DNA of 31,659 nucleotides, taken from a virus. The position numbers were made by a program, and so were the translations under genes. The stretch lies in the IMG/VR virus record IMGVR_UViG_3300029787_000208, positions 1 through 31,659 of that record; one strand, written 5' to 3'. Positions 12,244-30,947 of this stretch are shown here, one piece after another (positions within the stretch are counted from its first letter, which is position 1; each line of letters starts with the position of its first letter). Below the pieces are notes generated by a model. It made no database searches. It was given only the letters and a program-made list of their open reading frames with translations, and was not told the origin of the DNA.

Positions 12244-12417
12244 CTAATCTAGTTTAGCACTAGGTGGACACTGTTGACTTTCATCCCATAAGACTATGTG
12301 GTGAGGCCAGTAGTAGTACCTGGTGCTAATCTCTTTTGGGCATCTGTATTCACAAACTGTGTACATAGTAGCTATTGGAGCCATGCCAAAGAATACACCA
12401 GTTAGAGCACATATCAC
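12244..12417 (-). CDS. Small Cys-containing membrane protein, likely missed gene (57 aa)
   Basis: A 57-codon minus-strand frame begins with GTG overlapping the TGA of the 1229-aa gene (GTGA) and ends at a TAG 2 bases from the opposing gene's stop. The N-terminus is hydrophobic (ICALTGVFFGMAPIATMYTV, one likely span), followed by a polar tail with Tyr-Tyr-Tyr-Trp and cysteines at 3, 22, 26 and 50. No strong Shine-Dalgarno. It fills a gap that would otherwise be the largest non-coding stretch in the window. Family not recognised. Confidence 0.5.
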   Translation of the reverse strand: MICALTGVFFGMAPIATMYTVCEYRCPKEISTRYYYWPHHIVLWDESQQCPPSAKLD

Positions 12418-15400
12418 AGGCCAGTTTTTATCTTGAGGTTAAGATGATCTATGTAGGATTCGTATGTTTTAAGTTCTCTAAAGTTAAAATCTTTTAGTTC
12501 AGCATTTACACCCAAGCTCTTCATGTACTTCATAGCTTTAGCTTTTTGTCCTTTAGTGCCTTTAGTAGATGCTCTATATCTTTGTTGATCTATGTATCCA
12601 GTAGTGCCTACTATATCAAAGTATTGTCTTAACTCATTTCTAGCTTGAGTTAGCTCATGCTTAACACGTCCTCTTTTATCCTCTAAATCACTCTCTTTAA
12701 ATGTTTTACTTTGTATTAATCTTTGCATACGTCTTTCTAAAATAGGAGCTAGTGTTCCATTAAATATATTGTCATACGTAGGTATGTTTGATCTTTGATC
12801 TTGCTTCCATGACTGCAAGTTTGTCAACGTGTATGCTTGCTCTGTAGCTGTCTTACCTCGCTTTATGTTCAAGCCTAGTATACGAGCTAGTGGATTAGCA
12901 TCATAGATGTCACCCTCTCTGCTTGACACACGTAAGTTTTCACCTGTTAAAGTTTCAGACTCTCCTATCAAAACTTCTAGTATATTGTCAAAGTATTTAG
13001 TAGACGATTGTGTGAACGTAGTAAAGCCATCTGCTTGCCTAACGTCTTTAGCTATATCATTGTTAGCAAGAAAGCCTACTGATCTATTTATAGCATCTAA
13101 TGGACGTGTAGCACCTGCAGCTATATTACCAAGAGACTTATAAAGAGCATCTAAATCAGCACTCCTACCTTCATTAGCAAAAAAATCTAAGGCATTAAAT
13201 ACATCATTGCCAAACTGTACATCTCTGGCTACTTGACCTATAGCTAGTTGATTTCCTAGCTCTTCTAATAATTCAGGAGGAACAGTTTCTTTCTTTACAA
13301 TGAGATTACCTACTCGTCCAGCAGCTAAAAACAAAGAGAACGGAAACACATTTCTAACATCTATTACTGTGCCACTCACCTCTATCTCGTTTGTACCTAA
13401 TCCTTTCTTTTGTCTTTCATTGTCCATCTGCATAGCCATAACTAATGCAGAGCTACCTACTAAAGAACGAGCGAAAGCCTCATTAGTTTTTATACCAGGT
13501 TCTTTTTTAACTATGCGACTTGCAACCCCTGCAAAACTTAATGGACTCCACTGATAAGCTGTGGCTACAACATTATTCATAAATCTACCAAAAGGTATAA
13601 CAGTACCAAGCAAAGGTGTGTTAGATGCTTGTTCGACCCACTTAGCTGCACGACCTAACAATTGATCATCAGTGGTGTAATCTTTAGAAAACACAGAACG
13701 TAACGTGGTATCTACTGCACCGCCTATAACGTCATCATCTATTTTAGCTAGATCACCAGACTTTAATACATCAATTAGATTATCCCCATGCTTTAGTCTA
13801 ACATATTTATCTAGCTCAGTCATAAACATTTGTGACTTAGTAAATACATCCTGTACACGAACCCCTGTTATCATCATGGCAGCATCAGCAAATATTTCTG
13901 ACTTTTTTAATATACCATCTTCCATGTTCATGTTGTATCTTTTTGCAGTTCTCTCTACACCACCACCAACAGTTTCAAACAGTAATCCCTTTAGTTCTTT
14001 GTTGTCTTTTATCTCATCCATTAATCCTATAAACGAATCGTAAGTTGTTGTAGGATCAAGAAAGTTCTTCATCTTTTGTGCTTGTATATCTCTGTACACA
14101 CGAGCCTGTCTAAATAATTCTTTGCTTAACTTGGTATTACCTACACCTGCTGCACCCACACCAGCTATAGCTAACTGCCCACCAGCAAACAGATCAGCTA
14201 CACCCTGCCCTGCAAAGAACTGGGCGTAACCAGCTACGTTAGCTGCAGTTGTAGCAGGAGATGAAACTAAAAGACGTTTCCATACATTCTGTGCGTATCC
14301 TAATGGTCTTGCTCTTTTAGTTATACCTCCCAAACTTTCTTCACCTAATTGATCCCTGACTGCTTTTGATGCTACAGTTTGTGATAATATCTCGTTTCCT
14401 GCTACAACTCCTGCGTCTGTGGCTCTACGCACACTAGCCATAACACTAAGAGCACTACCAGCCTCGCTTGTAGTAGCAGCTATAATATCTCCTAAATCTA
14501 TGGCAAGAGATGCAGTCTCTCCTAGTTTTATTGATCCTCCTGTGGCTGTTAAAAATTCTTCTTTTATTTCTTCTAATTCTTTCTCAGGCATGTACTGTAA
14601 TAAGTTAGTCATTACATCAGATACTTTTGTCTTCTTAGAAAACTTAATGCCGTTCTCTAAAAATATCTTTGATAATCCACCTATGGGTATCTCAACCTTT
14701 GACTCTGCTTTTTGTTCCTTTGTGTAACCTAGCATTATTTTACTTAACAGGCTCTCTGGCATTTTCTGATTGCCCTCGCCTTTAGTTAATAATTTTTTAC
14801 CTGCACCAACCTTCTCAGACCAAGATCTAATGTCATCTTTTAATTGTTTAGCTGCTTTATCTACTGATTCTTTTTTAAGTAACGGTTTACCTATTGCCTC
14901 TCTTTCTAGTTTAGCCACTAATCTTTTTTGTTCTTTTATTTGTGCTTCAGGTGCTTTATCTTTCTGCATCTTTTTAAGTTGTTCTCTAGCTGACTTAAAC
15001 CTTTTAAGTGGAAACTCTGCAGCCCTACTTGCTGCTCTTGCACTATCTAAAGCCTCTCCTAGCCCAGAGACACCACCAAACTTACCAAACGTAAAGTGTA
15101 AGCCACCACCTACACCACCCAATGTAAGAGACAGGCCAGTTTGTAGTGCGCTATACTTGTCTTGAGCACCTACATCTAAATATATATCTTGTATAGCCAC
15201 ATCCTGATACCCAGCAAGTAAAGCATCGATAGCCGTAGTCTGAAGCACAGCTTTTTTAGCTGCTCTTTTAGTGCCAAACTTAACAACATTAGGCTTCATG
15301 TAACCCTTCTCAAGAACTACTTCACCACCTTCAACAACAGTTTTCTTAGCGGCCTTTTGTGCTGCTTCAAATCTTATCTTAGCCCTTGCAACTTTAGCTG

Positions 15401-16103
15401 CACTCTCTGCTGCTTTGTTCATAGATGCTTGTGTGTACCCACTACCTGCTAACTTTGCAGTCATGGCCTCTGCTGCATCTAGGCCAGCTTTCTCTGCAGC
15501 TTTCTTAGTTGCACCAGACTGTGCAGCTTTCCTAGCTGCTGCTGCTACAGAGGCTTTTATAGCTGCTTTACTAGCCTCGCTTACACCCAGCGCACCTGCC
15601 TTACCTAAACCGCCTGTTACTAAACCTACATAGTTTGTAGGATCACTCGCTATAGATAGTATGTAGTCTTTTACACCATCTACTGCACCAAAGACACCAT
15701 CGTTTACAAACACATTACCTAAACTATCATACAACTGATAGGCATCTTTGGCTATACGTTTAGTCTCATCGTCTGCTTTACCTATGAATCTAGCTTCACC
15801 TGCAGTGGCGACTATGTTAGTGTTAAATCTACGCATACTATCAACAAAGTCTTCAACCACAGTTTCTTTATCAGCATCCATGTAGGTAGCACCTTTTTTG
15901 CTAATCATGTACTGTCGTATTTTGTTTAACCTGTCTCTTCTGTACAGATCATCTTTCTTTAACTTCTCGCCCTTACGATTATCAGGCTCAAACATCTCAT
16001 CAAACTCAGTGTTATCTCTTCGCACTGGTGAACTAGAGTCTATCTTTTTAGGCTCAATAGGCTGTATACCAAGTTCTTTGTTAAGCTCTTCTAATGTTCT
16101 CAT
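12414..16103 (-). CDS. Very large internal virion / DNA ejection protein (1229 aa)
   Basis: Probable internal core protein that leaves the head with the DNA, comparable in size and place to T7 gp16. No enzymatic motif is seen. Residues about 165-300 are rich in Ala and Lys with long amphipathic helices, and Gly/Ala-rich hydrophobic stretches near 335-350 and 610-660 (NVAGYAQFFAGQGVADLF) could insert into membranes. The rest is helical and charged. It is ATGA-coupled to a lytic transglycosylase gene; in T7 that activity is fused to gp16, here it would be a separate protein. The ejection role is inferred from size, composition and neighbours. Confidence 0.75.
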   Translation of the reverse strand: MRTLEELNKELGIQPIEPKKIDSSSPVRRDNTEFDEMFEPDNRKGEKLKKDDLYRRDRLNKIRQYMISKKGATYMDADKETVVEDFVDSMRRFNTNIVATAGEARFIGKADDETKRIAKDAYQLYDSLGNVFVNDGVFGAVDGVKDYILSIASDPTNYVGLVTGGLGKAGALGVSEASKAAIKASVAAAARKAAQSGATKKAAEKAGLDAAEAMTAKLAGSGYTQASMNKAAESAAKVARAKIRFEAAQKAAKKTVVEGGEVVLEKGYMKPNVVKFGTKRAAKKAVLQTTAIDALLAGYQDVAIQDIYLDVGAQDKYSALQTGLSLTLGGVGGGLHFTFGKFGGVSGLGEALDSARAASRAAEFPLKRFKSAREQLKKMQKDKAPEAQIKEQKRLVAKLEREAIGKPLLKKESVDKAAKQLKDDIRSWSEKVGAGKKLLTKGEGNQKMPESLLSKIMLGYTKEQKAESKVEIPIGGLSKIFLENGIKFSKKTKVSDVMTNLLQYMPEKELEEIKEEFLTATGGSIKLGETASLAIDLGDIIAATTSEAGSALSVMASVRRATDAGVVAGNEILSQTVASKAVRDQLGEESLGGITKRARPLGYAQNVWKRLLVSSPATTAANVAGYAQFFAGQGVADLFAGGQLAIAGVGAAGVGNTKLSKELFRQARVYRDIQAQKMKNFLDPTTTYDSFIGLMDEIKDNKELKGLLFETVGGGVERTAKRYNMNMEDGILKKSEIFADAAMMITGVRVQDVFTKSQMFMTELDKYVRLKHGDNLIDVLKSGDLAKIDDDVIGGAVDTTLRSVFSKDYTTDDQLLGRAAKWVEQASNTPLLGTVIPFGRFMNNVVATAYQWSPLSFAGVASRIVKKEPGIKTNEAFARSLVGSSALVMAMQMDNERQKKGLGTNEIEVSGTVIDVRNVFPFSLFLAAGRVGNLIVKKETVPPELLEELGNQLAIGQVARDVQFGNDVFNALDFFANEGRSADLDALYKSLGNIAAGATRPLDAINRSVGFLANNDIAKDVRQADGFTTFTQSSTKYFDNILEVLIGESETLTGENLRVSSREGDIYDANPLARILGLNIKRGKTATEQAYTLTNLQSWKQDQRSNIPTYDNIFNGTLAPILERRMQRLIQSKTFKESDLEDKRGRVKHELTQARNELRQYFDIVGTTGYIDQQRYRASTKGTKGQKAKAMKYMKSLGVNAELKDFNFRELKTYESYIDHLNLKIKTGL

Positions 16104-16705
16104 TGTAGTGCATCCTTCAGGGCGTTAGAAAACTTTGTGCCTTTAGTTCCAAAAGCATCTGTACCAACTACGCCTGTCTTTAACCACGCCTTTGCTCCAA
16201 CGTGTCCTTGATTGTGTGCGTAAGCGAGTGCAGCTATCTTTTCTTTTTGTGATAGCTTTTTATATATAGGAGATTTCATCATGTAAGAATGATTCTTAGC
16301 CGTGTAAGCAGCTAATGCCTTCTCTTGTAAGTCTACATCTGACCTAAAAGACACTCTAGACCTTGTGTCATGTTTAAGTGGTGTCCCTAGTAAAGATGCC
16401 GCATCTATCTTTGCATCCTTACCTAGTTGATATCTACCATCATAATGATTATTTTTACCACCTTTAGCGGAGTAATCACCAGAAGACTCTATCTTAGCCA
16501 ACTCTTCTCTGTATGTATCCCATGAGCTTTTGTCTATACCTATCTTGTTAGACACAAGACCATATGACACATCTTCCCAATCAGCTTTAGGCTTACTCAT
16601 TAGTCCTTGCTTATCCTTTGTAGGATCCTCTACAAGTTTACTGTATTGAACATATCCACCGCTTGTTGCTGGTGAAGGTTCTGCATATTGAGAATAAGAA
16701 CCCAT
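16100..16705 (-). CDS. Lytic transglycosylase-like protein, virion-associated (201 aa)
   Basis: Likely cuts peptidoglycan to help DNA entry. The transglycosylase core shows the catalytic glutamate in KIESSGDYSA (E73 with this start), GRYQLG, and the AYAHNQGHVGA motif with its NxG (N165). A GLMSKP motif lies at about 34. The start is uncertain: ATG 16705 is 4 bases after the upstream stop but has a weak ribosome binding site. An upstream in-frame ATG at 16822, with AAGG 10 bases before it, would add 39 residues including KKKRIRR and a hydrophobic stretch resembling a signal anchor, overlapping the previous gene by 113 bases. No other lysozyme is seen in the window, so a role in final lysis is not excluded. 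Confidence 0.75.
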   Translation of the reverse strand: MGSYSQYAEPSPATSGGYVQYSKLVEDPTKDKQGLMSKPKADWEDVSYGLVSNKIGIDKSSWDTYREELAKIESSGDYSAKGGKNNHYDGRYQLGKDAKIDAASLLGTPLKHDTRSRVSFRSDVDLQEKALAAYTAKNHSYMMKSPIYKKLSQKEKIAALAYAHNQGHVGAKAWLKTGVVGTDAFGTKGTKFSNALKDALQ

Positions 16706-16709
16706 ATCT

Positions 16710-18320
16710 TCAAGACCCACGTTCACGGCGTTTGGTGTGAGGCCCAGTACCATCATCGTCGTAGAACTTACCACCAATGGGAATAGCATCAAACGCCTTA
16801 TCCTTTTCTTCTTGTGTATCATAGCTGTCTAACCTTACTATACTGGGTTCTTCATCGGATGTCAACCTTTCTACATCTAACTTCTTACCTGTCTCAGGAT
16901 CATGGGTGTCTCCAAACAACTCATCCCATTGATTAGGTCTAAGATTATCTGGTATCCTCATGCGTCCTGCTAGTATGTCATCTCTGTCTTCTCCACTCAT
17001 ACCTCCACCAAATACAGTAGTAGAGAAGCTACGCTCTGGTCTAGGAGGCACACCACTAGCTATATTACCACTATCATCCTTATAGTAAGTTGCTTCTTCT
17101 ACTTCTGGCTCCTCTGTTTTATCGACCCCTCCTCCTTCTGGCAATTTAGGGTCACTAACTATTTTTGCACTTGGTATTAATCCTTTAATAGCAAGATCAG
17201 CAAGAGCTTCATCTATCATATCCTCTTTTATTGGTGTCCCATTAGATATTATACTTTTTACCGCCCCATCTGCGCCTACAACTATTTCATATTTATAACC
17301 ACCTGTATTTGGTATAGTAAATATATTTTCAATATCTTTCTTTGCAGAAGTATTAGTCAATAATTTTTTTACTACCTTTCTTTCAAGATCATCTCCTTGT
17401 AATCCTTCATATGTCAATCTTCCTAGCTGACCTTCAGTTAGATACCCCTCTAAAACAGAACCCATCTTATCTAAGTAAGTAGGATTCTCCGCTACTATTA
17501 CTTGTACTTGATTAAATATAGATTGTGATCTGTCTAGAGCCGCTAACTCTCGTGCTCTTTCATTTTGTTCTCCTACTTCAACGCCCTCTTGCTGTGCTTG
17601 TGCGACATAATCACCTGCCTTTTGTTTATCTGCAATATTTCTATCAATAGCACTGAGCATATTCATAAAACTACGTGATGCACTAGTACCATCAAAGTCC
17701 TCTGTAGGCAAGAACGAAAAGTATGTACCCGGTGCAACACTTTCGTATGCTTCCTGTTTAGATATCTCATTTATATCCATCACAGAATACCCATCGTAAT
17801 ACGCATCTTTGTCTAGCCTTGATCTAACAGCATCGTCTAAATCAATACCAAACAAGGTCTTCATCACACCACGTTTAGGGTCTTTTGTACTACCTAAAGA
17901 TGGCTTACTTAATGCCGTATTCATCTCATAAAAATCTTCTGATCTTACATCGCCATACATAAAGTTATCAGAGTAGTCTATCAATGAGTCAATCTCGTAC
18001 TGATCAAACTTTTGTCCCGGTGTAAAGTCACGCCTCTTTGCCTCTGCCTGTGCAGACGTTGATAAATCAAACAGACCTTTAGGACCAGATGCAATAGCTG
18101 CATTAATATGCTTATCGTTAAAGCCCAACGCCCTCAGTCTTGATATCTCAGACTTAGCTAAACCTTGTAACTGTTTAAGCTGATTTATCTTCCCCTTAGA
18201 TTCTTCAGCGTTTTCTTTTAGCTCTCTTTTATATTCTCTTGCTTCAGCAACTCTTGTATTAATCTGACGTGCTTGATCCTCCATAAACCCTGTAGCAAAT
18301 GCTTTATAATTAAACGTCAT
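16710..18320 (-). CDS. Internal virion protein, helical (536 aa)
   Basis: A long helical protein without a recognised domain. Residues 1-60 are strongly charged and likely coiled-coil; the middle is acidic with scattered Tyr-rich segments; the C-terminus ends AIPIGGKFYDDDGTGPHTKR, a short beta-like motif seen at the ends of other phage internal proteins. An extended leader AAGGTAAAGTATT precedes the ATG. It lies between an acidic small protein and the transglycosylase, so it is probably a second member of the internal core or ejection apparatus. This role rests on context. Confidence 0.75.
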   Translation of the reverse strand: MTFNYKAFATGFMEDQARQINTRVAEAREYKRELKENAEESKGKINQLKQLQGLAKSEISRLRALGFNDKHINAAIASGPKGLFDLSTSAQAEAKRRDFTPGQKFDQYEIDSLIDYSDNFMYGDVRSEDFYEMNTALSKPSLGSTKDPKRGVMKTLFGIDLDDAVRSRLDKDAYYDGYSVMDINEISKQEAYESVAPGTYFSFLPTEDFDGTSASRSFMNMLSAIDRNIADKQKAGDYVAQAQQEGVEVGEQNERARELAALDRSQSIFNQVQVIVAENPTYLDKMGSVLEGYLTEGQLGRLTYEGLQGDDLERKVVKKLLTNTSAKKDIENIFTIPNTGGYKYEIVVGADGAVKSIISNGTPIKEDMIDEALADLAIKGLIPSAKIVSDPKLPEGGGVDKTEEPEVEEATYYKDDSGNIASGVPPRPERSFSTTVFGGGMSGEDRDDILAGRMRIPDNLRPNQWDELFGDTHDPETGKKLDVERLTSDEEPSIVRLDSYDTQEEKDKAFDAIPIGGKFYDDDGTGPHTKRRERGS

Positions 18321-18326
18321 AATACT

Positions 18327-18977
18327 TTACCTTCTAGCCATTAGACCCATCTCTTGTGGAGCCTGTTCTTGTTCTTCTTCTATTAGTTCTTCTGGTTCTG
18401 CACCCTCTACAGGCGGTTCAGTAACTTGTTCTAACTCTTCTGCTTCAGGAGGTGGCATATCTTGTGCAGCTTCAGCAGCGTCTTCACGTCCTACGTCCTG
18501 TGCTAGAAAGTCTGATATCTCTCCTAACAGTTCTGTACCTGCATCTTCTGTGCCTTGCTCTTGAGCTTTGCTTAATTCATTTAACAAGACTAACTGAATA
18601 CGATCTCTTTCTTTTTGATCTATTTCTTTTTGTGGGTCTTTGTTTGTAAACTTATAATCTATCTCATTGTTATCAGCCACAGCAGCTAAGAACTCCATGA
18701 TTACAGGCTTTACTAACAGAGCTACATCTAAAGTATGTGTGCCTTTCATAACTTGTGATAGAGTCAACGCCTCTGCTATAGGGTTGATAGCTATACCAGC
18801 AACTAAAGCAGCCATCATATCATCCATGACTTCTTCTCTAGCTAAACTAGTTATGTAGAACTGCGTTGCTTCTTCTACTGTGTTTAACGCTGCTGGACGC
18901 TCCCACGGCCTCTCACCTGGTGCATGAGTAAATAATGAGTTGCCCGGTATAGGTGCTCCAAACTGTGATACTGCCAT
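18327..18977 (-). CDS. Acidic structural-region protein ending in GLMARR (216 aa)
   Basis: The N-terminus MAVSQFGAPIPGNSLF and a helical middle resemble a family often seen next to internal virion proteins in marine phages; its function is unknown to me. The last 60 residues are very acidic, rich in Glu, Pro and Ala, and end abruptly in the basic EMGLMARR. I start at ATG 18977 because AGGA lies 8 bases upstream; the longer frame to 19010 adds MVLGLLSRKRK, which overlaps the preceding gene. It may act as a chaperone or scaffold-like partner given its charge; this is a guess. Confidence 0.75.
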   Translation of the reverse strand: MAVSQFGAPIPGNSLFTHAPGERPWERPAALNTVEEATQFYITSLAREEVMDDMMAALVAGIAINPIAEALTLSQVMKGTHTLDVALLVKPVIMEFLAAVADNNEIDYKFTNKDPQKEIDQKERDRIQLVLLNELSKAQEQGTEDAGTELLGEISDFLAQDVGREDAAEAAQDMPPPEAEELEQVTEPPVEGAEPEELIEEEQEQAPQEMGLMARR

Positions 18978-18987
18978 CTTTCTTTTC

Positions 18988-19431
18988 CTACTTAGTAAAC
19001 CCAGCACCAAAGTATAAACCTACTATGGCTGATACAATGTGTGTATCTAGGGGAGTGATTACAAATCCTTTTGCCATCTTCCATTGGATAGCTTCATCAG
19101 GGCCAAACAACCAGTTCATAAAACCGCCCTGCATCTCTGTGTATCCTACATATACACTGACATCAGGATACCACACTGCGACTAGCTTTGGCAAGACAAT
19201 AATGCTAAACACTGCAGATAAAGCTATAAGTCTACGTGTCCAAGCAAAGTGTTTATCATTCTTACCAGCGTTACGTGCTTCTGCTACAGCTTCTTTGTTG
19301 AAGTTAGCACGTTCCATAAGCATCTTGTTGTTGGCTTCTCTAGCCTTGATGGACTGCCCCCATATGGACATGACACCACCTAGTATGGTAGAGAAGAGCA
19401 TTGTTATTAGTTCTAAAGGTAGTCCTAGCAT
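18988..19431 (-). CDS. Three-TM membrane protein, candidate holin (147 aa)
   Basis: Hydrophobic spans lie at about residues 5-25 (PLELITMLFSTILGGVMSI), 65-85 (LIALSAVFSIIVLPKLVAVW) and 122-143 (VSAIVGLYFGAGF), with a basic, helical stretch between the first two. The size and three spans fit a class I or 3TM-type holin, but a structural membrane role is possible. I start at ATG 19431, which forms TAATG with the upstream stop and has GGGG 9 bases before it; an ATG 15 bases earlier lies within the upstream gene. The holin call is an inference from topology. Confidence 0.7.
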   Translation of the reverse strand: MLGLPLELITMLFSTILGGVMSIWGQSIKAREANNKMLMERANFNKEAVAEARNAGKNDKHFAWTRRLIALSAVFSIIVLPKLVAVWYPDVSVYVGYTEMQGGFMNWLFGPDEAIQWKMAKGFVITPLDTHIVSAIVGLYFGAGFTK

Positions 19432-20903
19432 TAAGAAGTACCCCATGTTTTAGGATTACCAAGATTAATTGTTATTGTAGTTTGAAAAGGCTCTCCTGCT
19501 TTTTTTAATCGTTCTTGTTTAGCATATCCAATCATTGAAGCGGCTTGAACAGGAGAGGCATCTAGTAATAAAGACCTTGCTAATCGTTTATCTCCTGCTT
19601 CTACCGCTTCAAAATAAGCTTTTCTTTTTGGTCCTTCATTATAATCAAATGTATCGTTTATTATTATATTACCATCTTTATCTTCATTAAACCTGAACAC
19701 ACCAAAACTTCTAGCTATCCTTAATTTTGGATTCATAATACCTGCTAATGGACCTTTTTTATTAACCTCTAATTCTTTTTGATCTAAGTCTTCATATTTA
19801 GTATATTTTCTACTGTCGTTCATGGCGTTGTTTACTGCATTACGTAAAACATTTATATCTGTTTTAGATATATTATCTTCTGTAAAATTTCCTCCTGCAT
19901 TTAATAAATTATTTGCAAAAAATCTAAATTCTGTAGTGCCAAAGTTTTCTAAAAAGTTTCCTATCCCATCAAATATACCAGCTTTAACCACTGTTACACC
20001 ATCGTCAACTCCCTCTATGTCTCCTACTCTTGTTCCTCGCCTATCCATAAGACCTTGTTGTTCTGATATTTCTGATTCATCTAGTTCAGTTACTGTCACG
20101 TCACCTGCAGACCTTTGCTCTTCTATAGCTCTTGCCATAGCTCCTGAAGTTATTGGTCCTACTACACCATCTACTCCTATGCCTTGCTTCTCTTGAAAGT
20201 CTCTTACGGCGGCTCTGGTTTTTGGTCCTAACTTACCGTCTACCTCTAGATCATAACCTAATATGTTTAAATTTCTTTGGGCATCCTCTGTATCGTATAC
20301 CAAAGGAGTGCCTGATTCTGCGGGTATACTTGCAGGTGCATCCACTTGTACTGGTGCTCTTGTATCTGATAGAGCTAACTCAGTCTGTCTAGCTATACTG
20401 TCAAAGTTATCCTCTGCTTGTGTAGACTGAGCATACGCTATGGCTTCACTTATAGCATCAGACTTAAACCTTTGTCTTTTTACTTGTGGTGTATCATTAC
20501 CAAACTTAACTAAATTCTTCATAGTGGTATTGTGTTGAGTAGCTAATGAATTAGGATTTATTAAAATCTCTTGTGCGTCTATGCTGTTTAACGGAATCCC
20601 TACTGATTTAATTTTATCATCATCATCATAGTCATTCATACTTTTAATTGTATTAGCTGTAAAAACAGCAGGGTTATCACCTGTCTCAACGCCCTCTGGT
20701 CTAGCTCTAGGTCTAAGGCTAACATTTACACCCTCTGGCCTAGCTCTAGGTCTAAGGCTAACATTTACACCCTCTGGCCTAGCTCTAGGTCTAAGACTGC
20801 TAGACATTAATCCCTCTGACTGCTTCTCATCCTCTTTTGGCTGATCAGAGTCAATCCCTAATACATTTTTTAATATATCTACTATACCATATTGATTAGT
20901 CAT
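19431..20903 (-). CDS. Peptidoglycan-binding-domain protein with SLRPRARPEGVNV repeats (490 aa)
   Basis: Residues about 206-258 form a peptidoglycan-binding domain 1 (AQRNLNILGYDLEVDGKLGP, then TRAAVRDFQEKQGI and DGVVGP), so the protein should bind the cell wall. No catalytic domain is seen; it probably anchors or positions the virion at the wall during entry, with the nearby transglycosylase supplying the cut. The N-terminus carries two and three-quarter copies of a 13-residue Arg/Pro repeat (36-71), directly after a GLM motif at 31-33; a second GLM lies at 284-286. The leader is AAGGTAAAGTAAG before the ATG. The C-terminal 200 residues are of unknown fold. Confidence 0.8.
   Translation of the reverse strand: MTNQYGIVDILKNVLGIDSDQPKEDEKQSEGLMSSSLRPRARPEGVNVSLRPRARPEGVNVSLRPRARPEGVETGDNPAVFTANTIKSMNDYDDDDKIKSVGIPLNSIDAQEILINPNSLATQHNTTMKNLVKFGNDTPQVKRQRFKSDAISEAIAYAQSTQAEDNFDSIARQTELALSDTRAPVQVDAPASIPAESGTPLVYDTEDAQRNLNILGYDLEVDGKLGPKTRAAVRDFQEKQGIGVDGVVGPITSGAMARAIEEQRSAGDVTVTELDESEISEQQGLMDRRGTRVGDIEGVDDGVTVVKAGIFDGIGNFLENFGTTEFRFFANNLLNAGGNFTEDNISKTDINVLRNAVNNAMNDSRKYTKYEDLDQKELEVNKKGPLAGIMNPKLRIARSFGVFRFNEDKDGNIIINDTFDYNEGPKRKAYFEAVEAGDKRLARSLLLDASPVQAASMIGYAKQERLKKAGEPFQTTITINLGNPKTWGTS
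20692..20795 (-). repeat. 39-base tandem repeat, 2.7 copies
   Basis: Units at 20692-20730 and 20731-20769 are followed by a 26-base partial copy at 20770-20795. The two full units differ at one base (T or C) in this reading, so the duplication looks recent. Each encodes 13 residues (SLRPRARPEGVNV). The length, 39 bases, keeps frame, so copy number can change without breaking the gene. Confidence 0.9.
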
Positions 20904-20914
20904 CTTACTTTACC

Positions 20915-23900
20915 TTAATTAAAAAAGCCGCCTGATTTAAGCCCACCAGCTTCACCTATAGCACCTATTGTAGCTGATAGAAATTGTCCTGCTGCCATAG
21001 AGAAGCCACTATCTTCTGCAGCATCTGCATCTATTTTAGCTTTAACTAACTCGTGATCTCTGTCAACTTGCTTCTCTGCGGTAGTCCAAGCGTAGTTCAT
21101 TAAGTCACGCTCTTGTTGCCACACTTCTGCTATACCTTGTGTTGTTAAGTTATTAGCTGTTTGTGCTGCCACCATGTTAGCTTCGTTAATAGCTGCGTTC
21201 TCTATAGTAGCTATGTTTTGTCTCCACTGAGTATTAGCTTGAGCCACAACCAGTTCATTAGATGCATTAAACATATCTCTCTGATTGCCTAACTCAGCGT
21301 TAAACTTAGCCATAGTATTCTCTTCACCTACGTTGAACTGCTCCATAGCGTTTTCTTGTGCATTGTTAAACATCTCAACTTGTGCATCTAAGTTCATAGT
21401 GAACTGTGTCATTTGATTCTTGCTCTCAGCATTAAACTGTTTAGCTGCGTTGTCTGCAGCTTGATCAGTAAAGATACTTTGTGTAGTTTGTTGTGCTTTA
21501 AATATCTCCATCTGCTGTGCGTTATCTAAGTTCTGCATATCCATCTGTAAGAAAGCTTGTGCTTTTTGTTGTGCAACCTGTTGATTATTTGACAAGTTAG
21601 TTAAGTCTACTTGTGTCAAAGATGCAGCATCAGACATTAGTTTGGCTTGACGGTTATTTAAGTTAGCTAAGTTTACAGACTGTGCAAGCTGCGAGTTCTG
21701 CAGTAAGCGAGATGTCTCAGCAGTAAAGTTCATGTTAGCTATCTCAGCTATACGCTCTGCACGTATTACATTTACTTGCTGTTTATTAGTTAGCTCTTGT
21801 CCTCGCATGGATGCTTCTATCTGTGCGTTAGCTAGGGCAGTCTGTTGACGGTTAGACAAGTTCTCTACATCGATGTTTAACGCATTAGTCATGTTAAACA
21901 TTCTGATCTGCTGTTCGTTGTTTAACTCTATCTGACGTTCTTGTAGCTGGCTTGACACGTTGAACAAAGATGTTTGCTGTCTGTTATCTAACACCCTACC
22001 TTCCATAGCAGCCATAGATACAGCATCCTGTATGAAAGCCTGTTGCTTATTATTGGCGTTACTTATCTCTCTTTCAAAAGCCTGTGTACTGGTAAGCACA
22101 GCCACTTGCTGTTCGTTAGTAAGAACCTGACCCATCATAGATGCTTTAACTTGTAAGTTAGATAGTGCAGTCTGTTGTCTATTAGACAAGTTAGTTAAGT
22201 CTACCTCTAACTTTTGATTAGCTTCTAATAGTAGGGCTTGTTGTCTGTTTGTCAGGTTTATATCGTTTACTTCTGCAAACCTAGCAGCATTAGCTAGAGC
22301 TACACTTTGTGATACGCTAATCTCTTGATTACGTATACCTGCATTTAGTTGTGCCTGTGTCAACACAGCCTCTTGCTGGTTACTAAGGTTTGTTAGTTGT
22401 AAGTTAGAATTGTTCATAGAGTTCTGTATGCTTACAGCTTGTCTATTAGATAGGTTCTCTAACTCAAACCTTTGTGCTGCTGCAGCATTAGCTAAAGCTA
22501 CAGCTTGTTTGTTACGTACATTCTCCATATCCATAGCTTGAAAGATAGATGCTTCAGCTTGTGCAATAGGCAAGGTTGTCTCCATAGCAGCCTGTATTAG
22601 AGCAGCAGCAGCCATAGAACTACCGCCCATGCCTCTAGAGTTCATAGCTTCGTTTACGTTACGTATGGCTCCTGCAGCCCATGCTGGTGTGCCATCGTTA
22701 AACGAATCCATGAGCCTCTCTAGTTGAAACGTGATAGTAGACTGTGGACTGACATCTCCTTTAGTAAACTTAGCCTCTAGTGTCTGCGAGAACGTAGCTG
22801 CTGCAGCCTTTGCAACGGCATCTCCATTTAAAGCTTCAAGTGTTTGTCCTGTTACGATAATCTTCTCATCGTTTATTATTTTGTTTATATCTATTATTTC
22901 ATCAGGCCCAACAACAGTCTGTGCTCCCGGTAAAACATCAGGTACAAACTCTGTTGTCTTCTCTGGTGCACTTGCCTCAGTTGCAAAACGTGCAGCCTCT
23001 TCTACTTTAGTAATCTCAGCTAGGGCAGCTTGTGCAGGAGCCAGATTGTAATCTACTTTTGCGGTAGCTTTAGGTGTATCTGTAGCAAACTTAGCAGCAT
23101 CAACATCTGGTCTTCTCTCTGTAATCTGTTGATCAGGTGCTGATACAATGCTATCAAACAGTTCTGCTGTTGGTAGTTCTCCGTCCTGCATACGTCTACG
23201 AAATTCTGGTATCTGTACTCTAAGTATGTCTTCTTCTTCAGCAGACAAGTCTAGCTGTGCTAGCTCCTGTGGGTCCATCTGTGCTGCTTTAGCTATGGCG
23301 TCTTCTGATGGTGTGCCTGTCTGTGCAGAGAACTTAGCTAGTGCATTTGTAATCTTATCTTGTGACATAGTAGCTTCGTATGTAGCCACAGAGTCATCTC
23401 TTGCGTCAGCTTCTATACGTGCTTCATACTGTTCTAACTTAACAGGATCAGTAGGCACAGGGCCATACTTCTCTTGCTTCTCTGCATCAGTGAGTTTGCC
23501 TAAGTATGCTAGTGTTAGTTTAGTTGATGGGGAGTCAACAGCATCAGCAGCCTTTGCTTGTTTAGCTATGATGTCTTCTATTTCTGCTAGCTGTCCTGTG
23601 TTTGTATCTATAAACTGATTGTTCTCAACCTTAATGCCATACACATCTGGACGTGTTACTAGATCCATAGGTGAGCTAATAGTCTTAGCTAATGTCTCTG
23701 TCACACTAGGAACTGCTGTAACTTTAGCTCTAGACTCTGTAGAATCCAAAGTCATTTTAGTTTGTTCTATTCCTTCATTAGCTGTATCTAAAGCATCTAC
23801 TGCGTCTACGTATTCTTGTTCACTTTCACTTTTAGGTTTATCTTTAAACGTATCTGTATCTTTAAAATCACCTAACATTTTAGCTAGATTATTAAAGTCA

Positions 23901-25057
23901 TCTATAGCGTCTTGTTTATTATCTCGACGTATAGTAATAGTTTGACCATTATCATATTTAAAAGTCCAGTTGTCTTTAGACCCTTTATCAAGTTCTTTTT
24001 CATCATACTTAGTAGGGTCTACTGGCAGCTTACCACTTTCAAGTATAGTCTTTACTTGTGATATGGGCGTGTTTGACTTTTCGTTTGCAGATAAAGTAAA
24101 TCCATACTCCTCTTTAACTTTAGATATATCTAAATAATTATCTTGTATTGTTTTTAAAGCATCAGGATATTTTGGTTGCCCTGTATCATCTACAGCATCA
24201 AAGGATTCAAACTCTATAGCTTCAACATCAATATCATTTAAAGTTATCTGTGCATCTGTAAGTGCCTTCTGTGCATCAGCATATGCTTTCTGTGCAGTGT
24301 CTAGCTCTGCTACTTCTGCTGGTACATCTTTAGGATCAGGAGCACCTGGTTGTATGATAGGACGTTCTACATCTTCGTCTACAGGTGGCTTGGGTAAGGC
24401 AGGACCACCCTCAATAGGCCCACCCTTTATAGGCAATCCCTGCAACTCTTGTAGCCTAGCAGTAAGTGATCCAATCTCTGCTTGTTTAGCTCTTTCAGCA
24501 TCTGCTTTTGTTTTTGCATCCTTAGCAAACATTAAAGCATCCTGTGATGTAATCTTACCATCCTTGTTAAAGTCAAACTCTAAGTTAGGATCAGCTTGTC
24601 CTGTAGCCATTTTAAGAATGTCTTGTGTTTGGGACTCTACTTCTGGGCTTAACTCTGTCTGACCTGCTTCTTTTGCTTTCTCTACTTCAATATTTTTAAC
24701 TTCGCCCTGATCCCCAAAGTAAGTTGAGAAGTCAGGCTCTTGTTGCACACCAGTGCCACCTGTGCCAGGAGCTATCTGTGTATTAATACCTGTTACTCCT
24801 GATAAGAATCCCCCTGCAGTATTAGCAAGTTTTTTATCTGGGGTAGTACCACCAGCTTGCATACCTGTAGGGGCTATAGGCTGTCCTTCTATGCGTTGTC
24901 TAGCCATCTCAGTATAACGCCCAAGCATAGATGCAGCAGACGGTGTAGCCGCTAAGAAGTTATCCATCTCATCTTGCTGCGCTGGGCCTGTATAGCCTAG
25001 CTCAGAAAGCAACTGATGCGTCTGCTGATTGTTAAAACCTTTAAACTTGTTTGCCAT
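20915..25057 (-). CDS. Giant repeat-rod virion protein (1380 aa)
   Basis: Largest protein in the window. The N-terminus (1-110) is low complexity with Gly, Gln and Thr; an EF-hand or dockerin-like calcium loop follows (DFNKDGKITSQD, 162-173, with D, N, D, I and D at the expected positions). The region 180-840 is helical, acidic and Thr/Asp/Ala-rich. Residues 847-1198 are sixteen consecutive 22-residue repeats (pattern LxNRQQ at the start) with no insertions or deletions; about six 11-residue repeats (QFNAxxxN) follow to about 1272. The C-terminus is Gly-rich. An 11-residue period predicts a nearly straight helical rod. A tail, internal-core or ejection-tube component is inferred; I do not recognise a named family. 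Leader TAGGTAAAATACT. Confidence 0.85.
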   Translation of the reverse strand: MANKFKGFNNQQTHQLLSELGYTGPAQQDEMDNFLAATPSAASMLGRYTEMARQRIEGQPIAPTGMQAGGTTPDKKLANTAGGFLSGVTGINTQIAPGTGGTGVQQEPDFSTYFGDQGEVKNIEVEKAKEAGQTELSPEVESQTQDILKMATGQADPNLEFDFNKDGKITSQDALMFAKDAKTKADAERAKQAEIGSLTARLQELQGLPIKGGPIEGGPALPKPPVDEDVERPIIQPGAPDPKDVPAEVAELDTAQKAYADAQKALTDAQITLNDIDVEAIEFESFDAVDDTGQPKYPDALKTIQDNYLDISKVKEEYGFTLSANEKSNTPISQVKTILESGKLPVDPTKYDEKELDKGSKDNWTFKYDNGQTITIRRDNKQDAIDDFNNLAKMLGDFKDTDTFKDKPKSESEQEYVDAVDALDTANEGIEQTKMTLDSTESRAKVTAVPSVTETLAKTISSPMDLVTRPDVYGIKVENNQFIDTNTGQLAEIEDIIAKQAKAADAVDSPSTKLTLAYLGKLTDAEKQEKYGPVPTDPVKLEQYEARIEADARDDSVATYEATMSQDKITNALAKFSAQTGTPSEDAIAKAAQMDPQELAQLDLSAEEEDILRVQIPEFRRRMQDGELPTAELFDSIVSAPDQQITERRPDVDAAKFATDTPKATAKVDYNLAPAQAALAEITKVEEAARFATEASAPEKTTEFVPDVLPGAQTVVGPDEIIDINKIINDEKIIVTGQTLEALNGDAVAKAAAATFSQTLEAKFTKGDVSPQSTITFQLERLMDSFNDGTPAWAAGAIRNVNEAMNSRGMGGSSMAAAALIQAAMETTLPIAQAEASIFQAMDMENVRNKQAVALANAAAAQRFELENLSNRQAVSIQNSMNNSNLQLTNLSNQQEAVLTQAQLNAGIRNQEISVSQSVALANAARFAEVNDINLTNRQQALLLEANQKLEVDLTNLSNRQQTALSNLQVKASMMGQVLTNEQQVAVLTSTQAFEREISNANNKQQAFIQDAVSMAAMEGRVLDNRQQTSLFNVSSQLQERQIELNNEQQIRMFNMTNALNIDVENLSNRQQTALANAQIEASMRGQELTNKQQVNVIRAERIAEIANMNFTAETSRLLQNSQLAQSVNLANLNNRQAKLMSDAASLTQVDLTNLSNNQQVAQQKAQAFLQMDMQNLDNAQQMEIFKAQQTTQSIFTDQAADNAAKQFNAESKNQMTQFTMNLDAQVEMFNNAQENAMEQFNVGEENTMAKFNAELGNQRDMFNASNELVVAQANTQWRQNIATIENAAINEANMVAAQTANNLTTQGIAEVWQQERDLMNYAWTTAEKQVDRDHELVKAKIDADAAEDSGFSMAAGQFLSATIGAIGEAGGLKSGGFFN
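21242..22519 (-). repeat. Protein-level 22-residue and 11-residue repeat array
   Basis: From 22519 down to 21464 the coding strand holds sixteen 66-base units in perfect register, most beginning with codons for LxNRQQ or LxNxQQ. From about 21439 to 21242 the unit halves to 33 bases (QFNAESKNQMT-like). The DNA units are diverged, unlike the 39-base repeat nearby, so the array is old and held by selection on protein shape. Confidence 0.85.
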
Positions 25058-26956: not shown

Positions 26957-28945
26957 CTAAGCTATAGCGTAAAATATATAGTCACCATCTGTAAAATCAC
27001 CTGTAATAGTAAAGCCTGATGATAATGGGTCTATATAATCTGTGTTAGTGACCTGTGCTGCAGTATCATTAAGCAGTAAATAAGGATCATTCCCAGCAAT
27101 TATTCCGTTAGTGCTATCCCACCAATACCAATCTCCTGTAGCATCAGTACGTTTAAGCATTACTAGTCTAGCACCTGCTGTGAATCCACAGTCTACATCT
27201 GTAGAACTTCCTGAGTGTGTTACTGACCCAACTTTAGATACACCTGCAAGAGTAGCAAAGAGATAAACTATCCAACTTTCCCCAGAGCTAAATGTTCCAG
27301 AATCTGCTTGAAATGTAGTTGATGTAAAGTTACTGAAAACAGTTGATCCTAGATTTGCACTATCTGTATTTAATCTAAGATAATTATTGACCATATCAGC
27401 ATACCAGTGACTTGTTCCATCTCTTCTTTTTGCTAGTAAAAATTCTGGTGCTACACCTAAGTTATGATTTATAGTCATTGCCCCAGAAGCACCTATTACA
27501 GCGACTACATCAAAATATCCTTTGGCACGTTTCCACATATAGTTAATATTATCAGTAGAACCACCAAAAAAAGCATTAAGACCAGACCCACCAATAGTAA
27601 ATCCATCCATTACATCCCATGCCACGTCACCTGCAGAAGTTGCCTCTGCTACATTGGCATTTGTCTGCAGGTGGCTGTTAGTTAATCGTGTAAATGCAAA
27701 ATTATTACTTGTTGCGTCATAAGTTGTAGCTATGCTAAAATCTACAGGAAATCCTGATGTATACTTACCCTCACCGTCTGAGCTACTTCTAATACTTGTA
27801 GCAAACACCTCAGTAGCATCTGTTATGGTAGCCATATCTTCTCTTCTAATTGCTACGTAAATAAAGTTACTGTTATTTTCATTTATTTCTGATGAAGTAT
27901 GACCAATAGAAAATCCTGTAGAAGTTGCTCTTGCCCAATCTTGACTTGTAGAAGTTTGTTCTGCTGCAGTTAAATTAGGGATTAAAGCATTATAACCAGT
28001 TACACTTAAATTACGCATAGAGTCCATTATTTGCCAGTTTTCAGATGAGCTTGTATTTTTAATAAAAAGCCATTGGGGTTCAAATCCAAGATTAATCACT
28101 GGCCCTGTAGTATTACCATTACCTGTATAACTCCCACACTGGATCATAGAGTCAGACCCTGTTTCGTGAGCAAAGAGGTAGGCTACATAAGTGCCAGCAC
28201 CGTGATGGTTTCCTACTGTAAAAGTAGTTGATGTAGGGGCTGTATCATTCCAAAGTAGGCTACCGTCACTTCTCGCAGAAGTATTGTTTAAACGCATTCC
28301 GTAATCTTGCGGCTCTGTAGCATCCATGCCTCTATGATAGACGTGCCAATCTTGACTTGCATTTGTCTGCTTCAGTAAAACCATCCCCGGAACAGAGCCT
28401 AGATTATGGCTTAACACATACTCGCCAGAGCCTTGCGTCCAAGTTTGAATATCAAAAAACTTAGGAGCTTTTTTAAAAGTCCAAGATACATAGTTTGTTC
28501 CATTAGTGTTGGTTGATCCGTTGACGTACTGCAAAGAAAAGCCATCACTGTTAAACGAAGAAATATCACTATTAGATGCTTCTGCAGTTGCACCATTTGA
28601 ATTTACTAATTTAGTAACGCCACGCTCAGAATCAGTCAGGATATTATTCTCAGTAGAGCTACGAGATTTCAACCAAACCAAACCACCCTTGTTAGATAAA
28701 TCAATACCATTGGTAATTGTTTGTGTACCTGCATTACCTGTCCACAAATCTATACTAAAGTTATTCTCAATAAATGTATCTGGATTAGCTACATTAGCAT
28801 CAGGCCATGTACCACCACGCCTAGCTTCTAGTTGATCCTGCACTGACCACACACCAGATGCTACCCCTGCTATGTGTGTATCACTAGAAGTAGGCTCTAC
28901 CTTTGTAGGTGTAATCATGCTTTTAAGAAAACGTGTTTGTGACAT
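26957..28945 (-). CDS. Tail fibre / adhesin with DUF7483-type repeats (662 aa)
   Basis: Probable receptor-binding protein on the tail. Several diverged copies of a beta-rich unit can be seen, each with a 'NLGxxPxxxxxK' strand followed by a Trp-containing strand: at about 85-93, 180-203 (SHNLGSVPGMVLLKQ), 285-305 (NLGFEPQWLFIKN), 493-515 (NHNLGVAPEFLLAKRR) and 590-610 (LVMLKRTDATGDWYWWD). This is the pattern I associate with DUF7483 in marine phage fibres. The N-terminal 60 residues, with GVWSVQDQLEARRGGTWP, probably attach it to the tail. TAATG coupling to the upstream propeller gene, with GGGGGA 9 bases before the ATG. Confidence 0.8.
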   Translation of the reverse strand: MSQTRFLKSMITPTKVEPTSSDTHIAGVASGVWSVQDQLEARRGGTWPDANVANPDTFIENNFSIDLWTGNAGTQTITNGIDLSNKGGLVWLKSRSSTENNILTDSERGVTKLVNSNGATAEASNSDISSFNSDGFSLQYVNGSTNTNGTNYVSWTFKKAPKFFDIQTWTQGSGEYVLSHNLGSVPGMVLLKQTNASQDWHVYHRGMDATEPQDYGMRLNNTSARSDGSLLWNDTAPTSTTFTVGNHHGAGTYVAYLFAHETGSDSMIQCGSYTGNGNTTGPVINLGFEPQWLFIKNTSSSENWQIMDSMRNLSVTGYNALIPNLTAAEQTSTSQDWARATSTGFSIGHTSSEINENNSNFIYVAIRREDMATITDATEVFATSIRSSSDGEGKYTSGFPVDFSIATTYDATSNNFAFTRLTNSHLQTNANVAEATSAGDVAWDVMDGFTIGGSGLNAFFGGSTDNINYMWKRAKGYFDVVAVIGASGAMTINHNLGVAPEFLLAKRRDGTSHWYADMVNNYLRLNTDSANLGSTVFSNFTSTTFQADSGTFSSGESWIVYLFATLAGVSKVGSVTHSGSSTDVDCGFTAGARLVMLKRTDATGDWYWWDSTNGIIAGNDPYLLLNDTAAQVTNTDYIDPLSSGFTITGDFTDGDYIFYAIA

Positions 28946-29904
28946 TATGCTATTCCCCCATGTGCATTACAAGCACCTCCTAGACTATTTCCACCTATAT
29001 TAGCAGCAGCAGTATCGCCAAACTCAGTAGCATTACCTGTAGAAGCTATAGTAATCTGGTCAAATTTATTACCTGATACTACAAATATTGCTTTTATTTT
29101 ATTAGTGCCTGAAGATGAGTTAATACTACCTATGTTTTCTGTTAAATCACCAAAGTCAGTAGCATTACCAGTAGAAGCTGTAGTTATATAATCTATAGTA
29201 TTTACCTCACTACCTGTATTACCACCAGCAAAAACTCCTCTTGTGTTACTACTTTCTGAAGCCAGTCCAAATCTTGAGTTAGTCAAATCCCCAAAGTCTG
29301 TAGCATTACCTGTTGAGTCTATAGTAAAGTATTCTATAACATTTAACTTTGGAGAAGGAACTCTTCCTCCACCAACAATAGCACGAGTAGTATTAGAACA
29401 ACCTGCTGATTCAGATTTATTCGTACTTGAATCTCCAAAGTCTGTAGCATTGCCTGTTGACCCTATGGTAATATAATCAACTACATTACTTCTATCAGAA
29501 CTATCTTCACCGCCAACAAATAAACCTCTTGTGTTATTGCTTGTTGCAGCAACACCCCCACCTCTAGCAACAGTTAAATCACCAAAGTCTGCAGCATTAC
29601 CTTCAGTGGAAAATGCTACATAATCTATAGTAGTTCCTACGCTACTTGCAGAACCACCTCCCCATACTGCACGAGTAGAAGAAGCTACAGCACCACCATA
29701 ACTACGACCTGATACACTTAAATCTCCAAAGTCTGTACGATCAGCAGTACTAATTAAATCAATTTTGTATATGTTTTGATCATCTGCACCAAATAAAACT
29801 CTACCCGCTGCTAATATTGATGCTGGACTTACATTATCTGCTGACCACGTTGCTGCATACTGAAACTGTGTTGTGAGGCTCCATACGCCATTATAGTTGG
29901 GCAT
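28945..29904 (-). CDS. Propeller-repeat adhesin 2 (319 aa)
   Basis: After a short N-terminal segment (MPNYNGVWSLTTQFQYAATW) there are six repeats of about 43-49 residues, each of the form TRGxFxGG...IDYxTIASTGNATDFGDL. Six Kelch- or RCC1-like units would make a six-bladed propeller. The C-terminus CNAHGGIA matches the end of its upstream neighbour. The two genes look like products of duplication. Likely surface-exposed tail protein that binds the host. The codons for HGGIA contain GGGGGA, the ribosome binding site of the downstream gene. Fold is inferred from repeats. Confidence 0.8.
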   Translation of the reverse strand: MPNYNGVWSLTTQFQYAATWSADNVSPASILAAGRVLFGADDQNIYKIDLISTADRTDFGDLSVSGRSYGGAVASSTRAVWGGGSASSVGTTIDYVAFSTEGNAADFGDLTVARGGGVAATSNNTRGLFVGGEDSSDRSNVVDYITIGSTGNATDFGDSSTNKSESAGCSNTTRAIVGGGRVPSPKLNVIEYFTIDSTGNATDFGDLTNSRFGLASESSNTRGVFAGGNTGSEVNTIDYITTASTGNATDFGDLTENIGSINSSSGTNKIKAIFVVSGNKFDQITIASTGNATEFGDTAAANIGGNSLGGACNAHGGIA

Positions 29905-30773
29905 TAGGCTATACCTCCGTGACAGTTAGATGCACCAGAATGAGCATAACCTCTAGCATCAGTTAAAGTACCAAAGTCTGTGGCATTACCAGTAGAGGCT
30001 ATTGTAACCTGCTCACCAGAAGTTAAAAATGCAGCACTACTACTTTCTCCACCAGAAAAAACTGCTATAGTATTATTACTTACTCCAAATGCTCCAGCCC
30101 TACCAGTTGTAAGATCACCAAAATCAGAAGCATTACCTGTACTTGCTATAGTAATATATTGAATCTCATTTTGTTTATTATTATTTCCTGCAATTACACC
30201 TCTTGTAGCACTAGCAGCAGGTGCTAAATAAGCTGCAGCACGTAACAGATCACCAAAGTCAGAAGCATTACCAGTAGAAGCTATTGTAACATAATCTATT
30301 GTAGTACTGCTTCCACCTAAAAATACGCCTCTTGTAGCACTAGCTGTTGCATTTATATCATCGTGTGTTCTAGTTAAGTCTCCAAAATCTGTACCATTAC
30401 CTGTAGAAGCAATAGTAACATATTCTATAGTATTAGCATCACTACCACCCCACTCACCACCACCAAAAAGAGCACGAGTGCTATTTCCACAACCACCACC
30501 TGTACTAAACGTAGCTGACAAATTTCCAAAATCTGATTCGTTTCCAGTTGTAGCTGCAGTAACATATTTTATGTGATTCCTAACTGCGTTAGAGTTATTT
30601 TGTCCTCCTGCACGTAATATTCTTGTAGCACCACCAGCAGCAGAACATTGTCTTATAGCTTCTGAACAATCACCAAAGTCTGTAGAGTTACCTGTGGTAG
30701 TTAAATCATAAAAATCTATAACATCAACTCCTGAACTACCATCAAAACCACCAAACATTAAACCTCTTTGAAG
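28963..30773 (-). repeat. Twelve degenerate repeats of about 130-150 bases across two adhesin genes
   Basis: Each unit encodes one propeller blade. The part coding for TIASTGNATDFGDL recurs with high nucleotide similarity, visible on the + strand as versions of 'ccaaagtctgtagcattacc'. There are six units in each gene. The similarity between units and genes gives sites for recombination that could swap or change blades. Confidence 0.8.
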
Positions 30774-30947
30774 GGCAGGAGTAAAACTAGCACTAGCATC
30801 ACTAGGTGCAGACGTACCATGTGAGTTTATAGCCCACACTTTAGCTGTAGCTGCAGTGCCATTTGTAAGACCTGTAACAACAATAGGTGAAGATGTACCT
30901 GTGTTAGAACCTGCACTATAGGCAGTGCCATCTGTACTAACCTGCAC
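29904..30947 (-). CDS. Fn3 plus propeller-repeat adhesin 1, start disrupted (347 aa as drawn)
   Basis: From GTG 30947 the product begins in the middle of a fibronectin type III domain (DGTAYSAGSNTG, IVVTGLTNGTAATAKVWAIN, TSAPSDAS), followed by six repeats ending in the same TIASTGNATDFG motif as the next gene, and the tail NCHGGIA. The same frame runs open upstream to 31073 and encodes the missing first half of the Fn3 domain (PDPPTDVTGTGGSEQVSVAF). It has no start codon there and is preceded by a TGA in frame. So the true gene probably begins in the 111-aa frame at 31401 and crosses by a one-base shift; the joined product would be 498 aa. TAATG couples it to the next gene. Confidence 0.75.
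   Translation of the reverse strand: MQVSTDGTAYSAGSNTGTSSPIVVTGLTNGTAATAKVWAINSHGTSAPSDASASFTPALQRGLMFGGFDGSSGVDVIDFYDLTTTGNSTDFGDCSEAIRQCSAAGGATRILRAGGQNNSNAVRNHIKYVTAATTGNESDFGNLSATFSTGGGCGNSTRALFGGGEWGGSDANTIEYVTIASTGNGTDFGDLTRTHDDINATASATRGVFLGGSSTTIDYVTIASTGNASDFGDLLRAAAYLAPAASATRGVIAGNNNKQNEIQYITIASTGNASDFGDLTTGRAGAFGVSNNTIAVFSGGESSSAAFLTSGEQVTIASTGNATDFGTLTDARGYAHSGASNCHGGIA

Follow-up and report, generated by a model that had tools for sequence, protein, structure and literature searches.

In a protein family of marine short-tailed phages with strict 22-residue repeats, length changes come nearly always in five-unit blocks

The α-solenoid families, such as those of the TPR, HEAT and LRV type, are made up of helical units of fixed length arranged in tandem, and the H protein of phiX174 reportedly has a hydrophobic segment at one of its ends. 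For phiX174 H, hendecads and an amide lining are described in PMC7354561 (text and Table 1). The α/β coiled coils with β-layers that contain the nonad I-A-N-M-A-T-K-D-D are homotrimers, SLH excepted (PMC4786415). The gp14-, gp15- and gp16-like ejection proteins of T7-type phages show (PMC8954989) the same gene order and size range as three genes of the locus described here.

The window, i.e. the whole stretch of viral DNA that was analysed (31,659 nt, positions 1–31,659 of record IMGVR_UViG_3300029787_000208, a fragment), encodes a 1380-aa repeat protein, P0001 (table 1), which gave no Pfam family over the cut-off, no PHROG family and no match among PDB sequences; a search of the open-access literature returned nothing on its repeat. 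The protein and its locus share with the T7 gp14-gp15-gp16 ejection proteins the cassette order and sizes, a podophage setting, peptidoglycan-active neighbours and an all-helical prediction, but the window family is a fourth, repeat-built protein beside the usual three and varies in length by repeat blocks; family profiles found no convincing match among PDB sequences, solved ejection proteins included. The likeness to phiX174 H lies in the richness in Q, N and R, the 11-residue units and the hydrophobic segment at one end, whereas the units of the window family are predicted to be of helix-turn type, belong to a tailed phage and number up to 31; no match to phiX174 H was listed by phmmer or hmmsearch against PDB sequences, which cover solved structures only. 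Tape-measure proteins of long-tailed phages are also long and helical, and are found among the weak BFVD matches, but the window family occurs in short-tailed phages (in podophage isolates the repeat number, n, goes from 2 to 11) and moves in steps of five. With the α/β coiled coils it has in common a turn motif like the nonad, and the Peptidase_S74 domain of some members hints at trimers, although here the unit is of 22 residues and the second layer residue is polar. Fixed-length helical units in tandem are shared with the α-solenoids, from which one helix per 22 residues, the lack of proline, the lack of a Pfam match and growth in fives set it apart. A repeat array of strict unit length that changes in fives is more interesting than a measured straight rod.

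Table 1. Layout of the repeat protein gene and of its neighbours, in nucleotide positions of the window.
Feature	Position	Strand	Basis or remark
1229-aa protein in place of gp16-like ejection protein	12414..16103	minus	position and size only
240-aa endolysin-like protein	16100..16822	minus	phrog_5867, E 5.2e-42
536-aa protein in place of gp15-like ejection protein	16710..18320	minus	position only
227-aa downstream partner gene	18327..19010	minus	position and size of gp14-like ejection protein
490-aa protein with peptidoglycan-binding domain	19431..20903	minus	PF01471, E 7.7e-16
P0001, 1380-aa repeat protein gene	20915..25057	minus	ORF; 281 family ORFs across 282 loci
C-terminal Gly/Ala-rich hydrophobic tail	20918..21022	minus	Peptidase_S74 chaperone domain beyond the corresponding segment in four relatives
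Conserved C-terminal domain, W-R-Q ... W-Q..RD ... DR	21023..21241	minus	alignments
11-residue units, residues 1199–1272, QFNA..S.NQ type	21242..21463	minus	lag analysis, length rule, spectrum
Sixteen 22-residue units, residues 847–1198	21464..22519	minus	lag analysis, alignment, anchor model; predicted helix-turn array
Unit 0, residues 825–846, LPIA anchor	22520..22585	minus	anchor model
Conserved pre-repeat domain, residues 740–824, GTPAWAAGA and ARG.G.SS	22586..22840	minus	alignments
Variable linker, residues ~61–735, with proline and glycine, length highly divergent among relatives	22853..24877	minus	
N-terminal ~60 residues, motif F.GF......GY.G...FL...P, recurring in relatives	24878..25057	minus	N-termini comparison, alignment consensus

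Within residues 847–1198, sequence identity at lags of 22, 44 and 66 residues is 0.25–0.27 (z 9.7–10.7 versus shuffles) and the units print in register, in keeping with the sixteen indel-free units first noticed from the sequence alone; in residues 1199–1272, the lags that stand out are those of 11 (z 5.1) and 33 (z 6.1) residues, which bears out the switch to 11-residue units that had been placed after residue 1198. Taken together, lags 22, 44 and 66 in the units and 11, 22, 33 and 44 in the 11-residue part lie 4.5–10.7 s.d. over shuffles. In the same analysis, a weak lag 3 alone rises above background in residues 1–700, and no lag does so in residues 700–846 and 1273–1380. The sequence-only reading had located the repeats correctly (residue 847 begins at 22519, residue 1272 finishes at 21242), and the question it raised of indels in relatives was checked: 19 sixteen-unit sequences, the window protein included, align without a gap. 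A coiled coil cannot be deduced from a strict 22-residue (2 × 11) period alone. Outside the array, proline amounts to 5.6% upstream of unit 0 across the family, a domain scan places a LysM domain at residues 71–110 of CRP-235 (L098) in the region equivalent to the linker, and at the C-terminal end the last 45 residues contain 47% GAILVF and 8.4% G.

A tblastn search with P0001 found matches in 27 phage records, mainly HMO-2011, roseophages of the CRP-n series and pelagiphages. Array length was measured between two anchor models, one for unit 0 (LPIA) and one for the site after the last unit (QFNA), both of which are present in 274 of 281 family ORFs; leaving out the 7 ORFs without one anchor and three truncated fragments (L042, L073, L074), 271 usable relatives were obtained, and in every one of these the anchor-to-anchor distance equals 2 modulo 11. 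The same holds for every member of a second set, in which 102 ORFs had both anchors and 61 distinct new relatives were left once 22 already in the first set and 19 duplicates had been taken out, so that strict length keeping, first noted in the single protein, is real and family-wide. The length of the 11-residue part up to the W-R-Q motif is 9 modulo 11 in 225 of the 226 sequences with the motif, the 45 of 271 without the W anchor being left out of this count. Repeats and 11-residue part of the family together, 66,653 residues, contain no proline, nor do 18,376 further residues of the second set. The repeat number is strictly kept within close kin, and the length of the N-terminal region does not offset it (r 0.45, 137 rows).

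Side by side with whole-unit arrays, a half-unit (11-residue) shortening giving n = 5.5 is found in L078–L080, L091, L099, L055, L067 and L028. This state requires three changes on the first tree; the half-unit loss that concerns L027/L028 sits in unit 0, beside the array and outside its interior.

The repeat numbers of the 271 relatives are 2 (83 sequences), 3 (7), 4 (1), 5.5 (9), 6 (62), 9 (22), 11 (40), 14 (2), 16 (36), 21 (2), 26 (4) and 31 (3). Among the 61 new arrays, 48 belong to the 6–26 series and 8 have 9, 14 or 19 units, the rest being 5.5 (two), 0.5 (one), 2 (one) and 7 (one). The values of n thus fall into the series 6-11-16-21-26-31, 4-9-14-19, 2-7 and 0.5-5.5: all those of the new arrays lie in classes modulo 5 that were already present, by which 0.5 is paired with 5.5 and 7 with 2, and the values 14, 19, 7 and 0.5 of new relatives, which had no part in spotting the rule, extend the five-unit step to further residue classes. 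As many of the 271 sequences are near-copies, changes were counted on a tree from which the variable units were left out. It had 158 rows after two short ones were dropped and after thinning, in which same-n rows closer than 72–86% identity were removed and different n kept. On this tree n changes at least 37 times and n modulo 5 only 8 times, versus 32–36 changes for moduli 3, 4, 6 and 7 and 24 for modulus 2. With branches under 95 collapsed, n changes 31 times versus 7 for n modulo 5, so that a minimum of about 24 changes involved five units or a whole multiple of five. The quantum of length change is 110 residues (five units, 330 nt), and array length changes in nature almost only by five-unit blocks.

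It is quite possible that this step means nothing for the structure: the one long stretch of DNA homology available would be a five-unit block of ancient origin, and unequal recombination would move 330 nt at a time. Indeed, identity at an offset of five units is 0.41, 0.48 and 0.58 in arrays with n = 21, 26 and 31, respectively, and the DNA identity of five-unit blocks in nine arrays is 60–86% at +5 as opposed to at most 54% at other offsets; given the five-unit duplication visible in arrays with n of 21 or more, block recombination is one cause of the steps. It does not account for them all: blocks five units apart lack similarity in arrays of 14 and 19 units (0.23 and 0.24), which nonetheless stand in the 4-9-14-19 series, the same step separates 2 from 7 and 0.5 from 5.5, and an array with n = 6 has no second block to serve as partner. 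The lack of offset-5 similarity at n = 14 and 19 favours an added structural constraint. Recombination and structural constraint are compatible causes, which are inseparable in this analysis. A simple five-unit duplication turning n = 6 into n = 16 was also considered; it is invisible in the sixteen-unit arrays, and duplication was retained just for n of 21 or more.

Structure prediction with AlphaFold2 reached a mean pLDDT of 48.9 (60–74 in the repeats) with the 19 sequences and of 69.6, with a pTM of 0.55, with 112 relatives of several n classes. In the latter model most units are predicted at pLDDT 76–91 as a helix of ~16 residues plus a turn, with helix starts spaced every 22 residues in a solenoid-like array, an outcome to be read with the caveat that AlphaFold2 may favour solenoids for repeats; the 11-residue part is modelled as long helices at low confidence (pLDDT 40–50). 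Across 1306 distinct units, position 2 is S, T, N or D in 93% and position 5 is Q in 87%, and glycine reaches 15% at position 20, with no more than 3.5% elsewhere; this composition agrees with turns. An array with 6-residue turns would rarely lack proline altogether, whereas a continuous helix would be expected to. At period 3.65 the spectral power averages 1.1, i.e. background, over the 22-residue units versus a weak 2.7 over the 11-residue part, and the 22-residue units show a power of 4.0 at period 2.75; a continuous helix would fit the 11-residue part only. Coupling analysis gave z of about 4 (4.1) from a unit to the next and 6.5 at two units, with equal or higher values at the other offsets that served as a control; couplings were dropped as support for contacts between adjacent units. 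No solved fold was matched: the 112-sequence model had no Foldseek match in the PDB at E ≤ 0.001 and a best Z of 5.7 with VIA-align, and the weak 19-sequence model gave no usable PDB match with either Foldseek or VIA; these comparisons neither assign nor dismiss any fold family of the PDB. In BFVD, four matches at E ≤ 0.001 are homologue-like, the best having a TM of 0.64 at 48% identity, and the next-best stand at E 0.04 and weaker.

A straight α-helical rod or tube, i.e. a hendecad coiled coil acting like the phiX174 H pilot tube with a lumen lined by N, Q and R, is unlikely in the light of these results, even if Q, N and A abound in the unit, proline is wholly absent, all lengths are multiples of 11, the helical period of 3.65 is present in the 11-residue part, and the core spacing 1-5-9-12-16-20 is formally 4-4-3-4-4-3. 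The 22-residue units themselves are at background for that period, the predicted helix breaks come at high pLDDT, position 2 carries a helix-cap signature and position 20 the glycine, and a straight 11/3 helix should lengthen or shorten by a unit or half a unit at a time and gives no reason for steps of five. The sequence-only reading, which took 2 × 11 to mean a hendecad coiled coil and the array to be a single straight helix of ~60 nm, is therefore not supported for the 22-residue units: structure prediction, for which it had named a confident compact fold as the refuting outcome, went against the rod with helix-turn units at pLDDT 76–91.

An unproven but testable idea is that five units make up one superhelical turn and that only whole turns can be added. 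As a tentative and possible account, the proteins would represent a new helical-repeat family of abundant marine phages, with a length quantised in whole superhelical turns of five 22-residue helix-turn units each, full turns alone being allowed so that the ends keep their relative orientation. If the array is such a superhelical spacer, nature has carried out dozens of independent length experiments, nearly all in steps of five, it becomes directly testable how function is tied to repeat number and superhelical phase, and a natural extendable scaffold is at hand for protein design.

The window phage is of the HMO-2011 type, and the protein's probable membership of the virion rests on synteny with such phages; no virion proteome for them was found in the literature searched, and no capsid or portal gene was recognised within the window fragment. 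In HMO-2011 and CRP-603 the gene comes after tail and fibre genes and before genes for proteins of ~150–190, ~500–530 and ~1130–1150 aa, a three-gene run that in CRP-603 has a cell wall hydrolase gene ahead of it. A similar order with wider sizes is met in phages of Rhizobium, Sinorhizobium, Vibrio, Aeromonas and Pseudoalteromonas, and across phages the run comprises ~150–230, ~400–930 and ~800–1900 aa. The three downstream genes, assigned by their position, resemble a gp14/gp15/gp16-like ejection cassette, which the repeat protein gene adjoins, itself preceding the trio. Of 281 loci, 243 have a homologue of the 227-aa partner, which lies downstream except in a single locus with overlapping ORFs, and only one of the 184 loci with at least 4.5 kb of downstream sequence is without it. 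Profile searches gave no PDB or Pfam assignment for this partner and no convincing PDB match for the 536-aa protein, and the 1229-aa protein had no PDB or PHROG match.

The best reading of P0001, if one that stays somewhat short of probable, is that of a virion protein of ejection type which penetrates the envelope and has a solenoid spacer that changes by whole superhelical turns. The ejection role that had been suggested at the outset fits the neighbourhood, the cassette being ordered like gp14-gp15-gp16 (PMC8954989). The ends of the protein (hydrophobic tail, LysM in CRP-235, and S74 behind the tail in four relatives) suggest envelope contact. In an ejection protein of this kind, the helix-turn units are predicted to stack as a solenoid, followed by the longer helix of the 11-residue units; five units would form one superhelical turn, and only whole turns would keep the orientation of the N- and C-terminal parts. 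The protein would exit the virion together with or before the DNA, its Gly/Ala-rich tail would contact a membrane, its N-terminal part could carry a peptidoglycan-binding domain, and the array would serve as an extendable spacer between the two.

Trimeric tail fibres commonly carry S74 domains. Peptidase_S74 is found at the C-terminus of CRP-3, CRP-235, CRP-738 and CRP-212 (n = 3-type relatives, CRP-212 lacking an anchor and its n being uncounted), while a Pfam search found none in the window protein. The protein could hence be a trimeric external fibre or tail needle that the S74 chaperone trimerizes and folds, the array being the shaft, possibly with β-layers between helices, as the resemblance of the turn motif M-A-N-L-S-N-R-Q-Q to the β-layer nonad would allow. 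This is improbable: the domain is present in just 4 of 56 members scanned, behind a Gly-rich hydrophobic segment, the second β-layer residue is S, N, T or D instead of A or V, separate tail-fibre genes lie upstream, and the gene stands at the ejection-like cassette with its 227-aa partner. Among the same 56 members, phrog_4287 ('DNA ejection protein') is matched by three relatives with n = 3 and phrog_6121 ('virion structural protein') by four, PHROG matches that stem at least partly from the S74 domain. DUF4214 occurs in 3 of the 56.

A length ruler (tape measure) for tail or host envelope is highly implausible despite the strict keeping of n within close kin, since n spans 0.5–31, differs among short-tailed phages with 53–56 kb genomes (short tails are described for CRP-1 to CRP-7 in PMC6918029) and, when repeat numbers were compared, differs between phages of one host strain (5.5 and 3 on FZCC0040, 6 and 5.5 on FZCC0023), which contradicts a ruler for the host envelope and leaves the word 'measured' in its tape-measure sense unsupported. 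As to hosts, the phage contigs L376–L379, equal in size and range, were binned into MAGs of both Flavobacteriales TMED123 and Neomarinimicrobiota MED589, so that the host cannot be read from the titles of GTDB MAGs.

Some minor features of the surrounding genes may be recorded. Near its N-terminus the 490-aa protein has three near-identical short tandem copies (SLRPRARPEGVNV-like) before the peptidoglycan-binding domain. At 16710–16822, the 240-aa endolysin-like gene and the end of the 536-aa gene have 113 bases in common, read in different frames, and the 3′ end of the endolysin-like gene shares 4 bases with the 1229-aa gene. At 28945–30947 of the window (minus strand), adjacent proteins of 319 and 347 aa, perhaps paralogous tail proteins, contain degenerate repeats around 'TIASTGNATDFGDL'.
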